A stretch of DNA of 64,000 bases from Methanoregulaceae archaeon UXB-2016 (GTDB lineage: Archaea > Halobacteriota > Methanomicrobia > Methanomicrobiales > Methanospirillaceae): assembly GCA_004332335.1 (NCBI GenBank), contig SISS01000015.1, forward strand, positions 103,218-167,217, read 5' to 3'. Positions 45,385-48,194 of this stretch are shown in pieces. Every line of letters begins with the position of its first letter. Position 1 is the first letter of the stretch. The notes under the pieces were generated by a model that made no database searches, was not told the DNA's origin, and was given only the letters and a program-made list of their open reading frames with translations. The position numbers and the translations under genes are program-made.

Positions 45385-46139
<755 letters not shown>

Positions 46140-46143
<4 letters not shown>

Positions 46144-46943
46144 CGTTCGAGCTCCCTCCACCGGAACCGCCGCTCCTCGATCCAGCGCAATGCGATATCG
46201 ATCCCGAGCCCGATGATACCGATCATGATCATGCCCGCGATGATCACCTGCACCTGGCTGAAGTTGTAGGAGTAGAGGATCAGATACCCGAGACCCGAGT
46301 TCGTGCCCGGCATCATCTCGGCTGCAACCACGCACATCCAGGCGATTCCGAAGCCGACCCGCATTCCGGTCCAGATGGTTGGGAGGGCGCCGGGCAGGAT
46401 CACCTTGGTCAGCACCTGACGCTCGGTCGCCCCGAGGGTCATCGCGGCCTCGATCCAGGTCCGCTTGACCGACCGGACCCCGTCGAGCGTGTTCAACAGC
46501 ACGGGGAAGAACGACCCGAGGGCGATGATGAAGACCATCGAGGTCAGGCCGATCCGGAACCAGGCGAGGGCGAGCGGGACCCAGGCAAGGGGAGGGATCG
46601 GCCGGAAGATCTGAACGAGAGGATCCATGAGTTCGTCCACGCGGGGCCAGCGCCCCATCGCGACCCCGAGGGGGATCGCGAGGGCCGCTCCGACGGCGAA
46701 GCCGATCAGGACCCGCTCGAGCGAGACGAGGGCGTTCTCCACGAGCGAACCCGTCCCGAGGATCGATGCGAACGGCGTGGCGAGCACGGCCGCCACCGAC
46801 TCCAGGCTCGGCAGGACGAACTGGTTATTGATGACAATCGCCGCGATCTCCCAGGCGATCAGAAAAAGGACGGGCATGACCGCCCAGCGGAGCCCCCGGG
46901 CCACGCGCTGGTACCGGCGGCGCTTCTGAACGGTCTCCCTCAT
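46140..46943 (-). CDS. ABC transporter permease (SsuC/NitT type)
   Basis: EAAMTLGATERQVLTKVILPGALPTIWTGMRVGFGIAW EAA loop; 6 TM. Confidence 0.94.
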
Positions 46944-46967: not shown

Positions 46968-48194
46968 TTACCCCTCGGTGACGGTGAAGCCCGAGTCCTT
47001 CAGGGAGAACCGGAACATCACGTCCTGGATCGAGCCTTTTGAGGGGGCGGCGATCTTCAGGGGCTTCCCTTCGAACGAGCGGGTTCGGGCCCAATCGGCA
47101 AAGGAGGGCCAGTCCGTGGCCGGTGAACCGGCGACCGCGACAATTCCCGATCCCTCAGTATTGATGGGCTGGAGTACCTTAATAGGAGTTCCCCTGTCGA
47201 TCGCGGCGATCGCGGGGGGCACGCCGGCAAAGCCCATCTGGGCGTTGTTCGTCGCCTCCATCTGCATCAGCTCGGGACCGGCATTCGCCGAGATCAGGCG
47301 AACCTCGGCCACGCTCTCGCCGTTTACGACGAGGTCGCAGACCTCGGGCTTGGCCTGGGTCGGGTCACGGGGCTTGAGCATGATCCCGTAGTTGTCGTTC
47401 ATCCACTGGTGCTTCTTGATCGCAACCAGCAGGCCGCCCGAGTGCATGTCGGCCTTGAGGTAGCCGAGCGTGACCGGGCTCGACAGCTTCGCCGGGGTGA
47501 CGATCTTCTTCTGGGCGATCATCTGTGACGCGGACTCGTACGGTCCGACATCGAAGAGGATCTCGTCCAGCTCGGCTCCGGTGGCGTTGCCCAGGCGTCC
47601 CTGCACGATCCCCAGGCTCTTCTGGGCCGCGACGAACTGACGGGTTCCGTTTCTCCAGCCCTCGGTCGGTTCGGAGGTATACCGGACGGTCTTGATTGCA
47701 TCGGTCGTCACGCCGACGGACCCGACCGAGACGTTGCCGTAGGTGAAGTTGGCCTTGCCCACGAGCCAGTCGGCCAGGATATCGGCGGCCTCATCGGGGT
47801 GCTCGGTGGTGTAGGTGTTGCCGAGGATCGTGACGGCCGAGATCGCGTTGACGAAGTCGGGGTTCGCGGCGAGCAGGTCGTCACGGGCCGTGATTACGCA
47901 GCACGGGTGATTCTCCCACATCCCGGTGGGCGGCATTTCGGGCGAGTATGCCACGACCTGGCCGATCTTCGACTGGGTCGCGATCGACACGAACGGCTGC
48001 CAGGCGATGTATCCGTCGACCTGCTTGGTGGCCAGCAGGTTCGGCATGGGGCCGACGCCCTGGCTGTAGAGGATGCCGACTGTTGCATTCTTCGCCGTCT
48101 GGTTGCCCCCAGACGGAGTCGTGGTGCAGCCGGCGATGCAGAGGCCCGCGACGGCCAGAACGGCCAGCGCGAGCATCATCGTACGTGAGTCCAT
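46968..48194 (-). CDS. ABC transporter substrate-binding lipoprotein (SsuA/NMT1-like) with apparent swapped half-domain order
   Basis: Lipobox AGLCIAGC; typical C-terminal-half motifs (TKQVDGYIAWQPF, NHPCCVITARDDLLAANPDFV, HPDEAADILADWL) precede N-terminal-half motifs (VTLGYLKADMHSGGLLVAIKKHQW, AQMGFAGVPPAIAAIDRGTPIKVLQPINTEGSGIV, LKIAAPSKGSIQDVMFRFSLKDSGF). Confidence 0.88.
   Translation of the reverse strand: MDSRTMMLALAVLAVAGLCIAGCTTTPSGGNQTAKNATVGILYSQGVGPMPNLLATKQVDGYIAWQPFVSIATQSKIGQVVAYSPEMPPTGMWENHPCCVITARDDLLAANPDFVNAISAVTILGNTYTTEHPDEAADILADWLVGKANFTYGNVSVGSVGVTTDAIKTVRYTSEPTEGWRNGTRQFVAAQKSLGIVQGRLGNATGAELDEILFDVGPYESASQMIAQKKIVTPAKLSSPVTLGYLKADMHSGGLLVAIKKHQWMNDNYGIMLKPRDPTQAKPEVCDLVVNGESVAEVRLISANAGPELMQMEATNNAQMGFAGVPPAIAAIDRGTPIKVLQPINTEGSGIVAVAGSPATDWPSFADWARTRSFEGKPLKIAAPSKGSIQDVMFRFSLKDSGFTVTEG

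Follow-up and report, generated by a model that had tools for sequence, protein, structure and literature searches.

The 64,000-nucleotide stretch of DNA analysed here (the window), from Methanoregulaceae archaeon UXB-2016, contains one minus-strand gene whose product raises a question of chain order. A first-pass annotation had proposed, from the order of its motifs, that the encoded solute-binding protein (SBP) carries the two halves of an NMT1/SsuA-type protein in exchanged order. The questions are whether this circular permutation is real, how widely it is shared, and how many times it has arisen. The open reading frame, its coordinates, the signal peptide and the lipobox were all found on the minus strand, and every motif quoted in that annotation is present there in the order claimed. 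The features considered below are the following:

46968..48194 (stop codon included), minus strand: circularly permuted NMT1/SsuA-type solute-binding lipoprotein, 408 aa (sequence, profile and model)
48129..48194, minus strand: signal peptide, residues 1-22 (read from sequence)
48126-48128, minus strand: codon of the lipobox cysteine, residue 23 (read from sequence)
47526..48083, minus strand: equivalent of the canonical second half, placed first, residues 38-223 (alignments)
47898..47912, minus strand: NHPCC motif, residues 95-99 (alignments and sequences)
47481..47525, minus strand: linker bridging the former C- and N-termini, residues 224-238 (alignment to the canonical protein L112)
46971..47480, minus strand: equivalent of the canonical first half, placed last, residues 239-408 (alignments)
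47286..47342, minus strand: beta-hairpin insertion, residues 285-303 (model strands 285-290 and 293-303)
46140..46943, minus strand: ABC permease, NitT/TauT type, PF00528 (profile match; adjacency conserved)
45385..46143, minus strand: ABC ATPase, NitT/TauT type (profile match; adjacency conserved)

Evidence for Exchanged Halves

The half-swap in the window SBP is far above chance. The Pfam NMT1_2 profile (PF13379) matches the native protein in two separate stretches (72.6 bits, against a gathering score of 24.7), the best of which places residues 50-143 on profile positions 164-250, so that the profile's C-terminal region covers the protein's N-terminal region. A single collinear match is absent natively and is obtained only after rotation of the sequence, when residues 71-290 align to profile positions 35-250 with 81.3 bits. 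Similarly, canonical paralogues from within the taxonomic order align by BLASTP as pairs of segments in reversed order (for instance, query 205-403 on subject 11-176, and query 54-222 on subject 196-341). Since a phmmer search of the PDB with the single window protein matched nothing, a family profile was needed for the comparison with known structures; with it, residues 276-353 fall on positions 12-91 of the TauA chain and residues 54-133 on positions 145-219, and the same half swap is seen against 3un6 and NrtC. The NCBIfam model SsuA_fam (TIGR01728) scores 57.5 bits on the native protein and 65.6 on the rotated one, both below its cut-off of 163.5. Each half is present once, and the first-half equivalent stops in the loop where canonical proteins carry on.

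The predicted structure agrees with this order. AlphaFold, with 48 relatives in the input, gave one confident fold for the window SBP (pLDDT 93.1, pTM 0.87), and as a control the canonical Methanococcales relative L112 was also modelled (pLDDT 88). When the window SBP is rotated, 350 positions align to L112 with 34% identity and 90% agreement in predicted secondary structure; without rotation the alignment covers just 175 positions, half of the protein. With a cut-off of E<=0.001, Foldseek, which demands sequential order, gave 1235 PDB matches for L112 (best 6.9e-16) and not one for the permuted window model, which is the signature expected of a permutation. The top matches of L112 are of the CmpC/NrtA, 3un6 and TauA types, with SsuA types also found. 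The canonical relative matches the type II SBP fold of TauA, NrtA and SsuA at about 1e-15, and its elements agree with those of the rotated window model. The predicted fold does not appear to have the linear canonical topology, and sequence, profile and predicted structure together support the permutation proposed in the first-pass annotation. According to the family layout, the swapped sequence halves would not coincide with the two lobes of the protein, and the cut would lie within lobe 2, about 30 residues past the first lobe crossing.

Some local features accompany this order. The N-terminal lipobox of the window SBP reads GLCIAGC, and an AGC or SGC lipobox is kept in most members of the family. 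The beta-hairpin is common to the window SBP and its Methanococcales relatives (the L112 model has matching strands at 80-85 and 88-97) and was not seen in the Archaeoglobus-type or Methanocella-like relatives. The adjacent cysteines of the NHPCC motif are common to permuted and canonical members, and the motif could possibly be a ligand or metal site.

The Importer Operon

The first-pass annotation had also noted that cognate permease and ATPase genes directly follow the SBP gene. They do, in that order and of the type expected for a NitT/TauT importer, and the arrangement is conserved: the three genes are adjacent in most of the loci examined, and the operon is conserved across the Methanomicrobiales. 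The best NCBIfam matches of the permease and the ATPase are Sao/Tau/Ntr models, all under their cut-offs. The operon lies amid housekeeping genes (argH, gatD/gatE, L10e, fumarase and korA/B-like genes are nearby), so that the neighbourhood gives no clue to the substrate.

An HTH regulator of about 150-180 aa, transcribed divergently and located upstream of the SBP gene (in L085, L174, L176-L179 and other loci), is kept beside the operon in several groups; the window and its nearest relatives lack it. In five Methanococcales loci (L165, L166, L171, L167 and L168) the SBP gene stands apart from the permease and ATPase genes, and a permease 51-57% identical to that of the window is encoded elsewhere in the genome. 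With either SBP order, the Methanococcales genomes checked encode a single such close permease homologue, with the exception of one draft genome that has none. The window genome itself encodes a second permuted SBP (L002, G000:C15:9272-10477); neither a permease nor an ATPase gene lies next to it on its 15 kb contig, and this protein may share the permease of the window.

Distribution of the Permuted Order

The first-pass annotation had left to a homologue search whether the swapped order is conserved in related methanogens, and such conservation was found. The permuted order is present in about 95 genes: among all the open frames fetched, 75 distinct genes were classified as permuted and 41 as canonical, and 18 further permuted genes were found later. 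Homologues in genomes of the same genus are permuted (67-82% identity), as is the paralogue L002 on another contig of the same genome (53% identity to the window SBP), and the order occurs in most of the sampled genomes of the Methanomicrobiales. It is also found in single-contig genomes, among them that of Archaeoglobus fulgidus (G151, whose DsrA is identical to 3MM5), in whose class a third permuted group was found.

Two further observations concern permuted genes. A divergent subfamily (L062-L069 and L192) shows about 30% identity, and several of its members lack the lipobox cysteine and are seemingly anchored by an uncleaved N-terminal helix. On a 6.5 kb contig (G238:C58), a permuted SBP gene (L173) is accompanied by permease and ATPase genes of its own, in a metagenome-assembled genome placed outside the Methanomicrobiales; this placement may reflect either transfer or misbinning.

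Three Permuted Clades and One Cut

The permuted genes form three clades, namely the Methanomicrobiales, one subclade of the Methanococcales and the class containing A. fulgidus, each with canonical relatives nearby. These relatives are methanococcal, Methanocella-like and from the Desulfobacterota; the Methanocella-like family (f14, G068 and G077) we take to be Methanocella, partly from McrA. The Methanococcales contain both orders (permuted in 9 genomes, canonical in over 20), with halves 50-83% identical between permuted and canonical proteins. For the Archaeoglobus-type group, the closest canonical relatives found are those of the Desulfobacterota, with 45-52% and 33-41% identity by half.

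Three trees, each sampled differently, were built from concatenated halves set in canonical order. The permuted Methanomicrobiales are sister to the Methanococcales (support 100/99), the permuted Methanococcales genes are nested among the canonical ones of that order, and the permuted Archaeoglobus-type genes are sister to the canonical Desulfobacterota (100/99). All three trees agree on at least three changes of chain order, and in all of them every permuted clade has canonical nearest relatives. AU tests, set up after the groups had been seen, reject the union in one clade of the Methanomicrobiales with the permuted Methanococcales (p = 0.0003) and with the Archaeoglobus-type genes (p = 0.0005). 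The monophyly of the permuted Methanococcales has moderate support (91-97% bootstrap, SH-aLRT 50-77). Trees of single halves, obtained by a quick method, imply four changes and are weakly resolved because the half sequences are too short.

The methanococcal genes also offer a comparison at a single locus. In G207 (canonical) and G208 (permuted), presumably Methanococcus aeolicus and Methanothermococcus okinawensis, respectively, the two SBPs are 80% and 62% identical by half, and each is followed by the same four downstream genes, collinear and in the same orientation (68, 61, 56, and 74% identity). The canonical methanococcal chain reads ITYTE-KTDDSA-MVKLINCKGQ at the site of the cut, and the permuted chain ends in ITYTE and starts, after the lipobox linker, with MVKLVNCKGQ. 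In the window SBP (ending FTVTEG, starting ATVGILYSQG) and the A. fulgidus SBP (ending GLEITT, starting VKVVTMSPRDM), the cut falls in the equivalent loop. In all three permuted clades, the cut lies in one short loop.

According to these data, the window gene very probably encodes a circularly permuted SBP of a NitT/TauT-type importer, and in this family the same permutation, at the same loop, has most likely arisen on three independent occasions. The broader statement, that at least three permutations at this loop have occurred within one archaeal importer family in which permuted and canonical orthologues share a locus, is also likely.

Alternative Explanations

An error of assembly, misbinning or a chimeric gene call would be conceivable, given that the window genome is a draft of 45 contigs. 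However, it is refuted by the sharing of the same order among about 95 genes, including the same-genome paralogue, the same-genus homologues and the single-contig genomes, and the probability left to it is negligible; the assembly error that the first-pass annotation had named as a possible source of the order can be set aside. The family is longer than SsuA (408 vs. about 320 aa), which might suggest that two different proteins were fused, or that a partial duplication kept both canonical copies. Nonetheless, each half occurs once, the flanks contain no extra half, the rotated window sequence matches a canonical orthologue from one end to the other, and the additional length is made up of the linker, the beta-hairpin and a longer second half; the existence of methanococcal orthologues in both orders refutes this origin, which deserves practically no credence.

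The history of the permutation leaves more room for discussion. The identical loop in the three groups might be taken as the mark of a single permuted ancestor whose gene was spread by horizontal transfer, a process that is plausible among these groups and of which the permuted gene on the short G238 contig could be an instance. This history is nevertheless improbable: both AU tests oppose it, as do the canonical nearest relatives of each clade and the fact that the permuted Methanococcales gene keeps the locus of its canonical orthologue, and the beta-hairpin unites the Methanomicrobiales with the Methanococcales whatever their chain order and was not seen in the Archaeoglobus type. The counts of changes, when unrooted, give no direction by themselves, so that the permuted form could also be the older one, with a return to the standard order in the canonical proteins of the Methanococcales or of the Methanocella-like group. 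With a canonical outgroup, however, the simplest history consists of three independent permutations, while reversion needs four changes; all the distant NMT1 relatives sampled outside these groups are canonical, and in the loci checked no permuted remnant lies beside a canonical gene. A permuted ancestor is, on this evidence, quite improbable.

A Model for the Permutation

Under the preferred reading of three independent permutations, one event each would have taken place in the ancestral Methanomicrobiales protein, in a subclade of the Methanococcales and in the Archaeoglobus-type class. In each, the old N- and C-termini, which would be neighbours in lobe 1, would have been joined by a short linker, and a break in a lobe 2 loop, which separates the helix after the GSIQDV motif from the beta strand that comes next, would have created new termini, with the signal peptide and lipobox placed ahead of the new N-terminus. 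Since the lipobox precedes this new N-terminus, the lipid anchor would tether lobe 2 rather than lobe 1; that lobe 2 carries the anchor is what the family layout suggests. The permuted SBP is predicted to fold still as a two-lobed type II binding protein, which would close on a small solute between the lobes and hand it to the adjacent permease and ATPase. Binding function is presumably preserved, and the substrate is probably anionic.

Regarding the genetic route, the first-pass annotation had suggested a tandem duplication followed by loss of the outer halves. Duplication, fusion and trimming would fit an orthologue rearranged in place and are the putative route, but a scan of the flanks of the loci checked found no leftover halves, tandem or fusion intermediates or other remnants. 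If the model holds, selection, perhaps on the site of the lipid anchor, would repeatedly favour lobe 2 over lobe 1 as the place of the termini, and the case bears on whether the attachment point of the anchor matters for docking to the transporter.

Comparison with Known Systems

As a rule, a natural circular permutation is a single event of great age, pieced together by comparing distant folds. In this family, orthologues of the two orders that are 60-80% identical share a locus, and three events at one loop are indicated, so that why and how proteins permute becomes directly testable. The larger result, beyond the single case first pointed out, is that a single importer family appears to have been permuted repeatedly in the same way. 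The open-access literature searched yielded no description of such a permutation in SsuA/TauA-type or methanogen proteins, which is not proof of absence. As permuted SBPs give partial or fragmentary scores in collinear profile and structure searches, they are easily mis-annotated.

Compared with the type II SBPs of the NMT1_2/SsuA/TauA/NrtA-CmpA group (PF13379, PF09084), the window SBP has the same elements after rotation and differs in its exchanged halves, its longer chain and the extra beta-hairpin. The canonical Methanococcales orthologues (for example, L112-L122 and L114) belong to the same family and share the hairpin, with halves about 30-49% identical to those of the Methanomicrobiales; they differ in having the standard order, with the lobe-1 motifs first.

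The nearest precedent is Tp0684/TpMglB-2 of Treponema pallidum, which, with its relatives, forms a clade-conserved group of naturally permuted, membrane-anchored ABC SBPs with the type I (cluster B) sugar-binding fold, for which the name "Type Ic" ligand-binding proteins has been proposed (PMC4990184). The window SBP is likewise rotated, membrane-anchored and made of both halves once. It does not belong to Type Ic, which is defined by MglB/type I homology: its family matches are to NMT1/SsuA-type models, with none to type I sugar-binding families. Fold and cut are also different, and the consulted portion of that work describes neither a canonical orthologue at the same locus nor recurrence (PMC4990184). 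Its authors consider anchoring or tethering a possible reason for the altered topology (PMC4990184), and the lipid-anchored archaeal proteins would, by analogy, fit this tethering idea rather than prove it.
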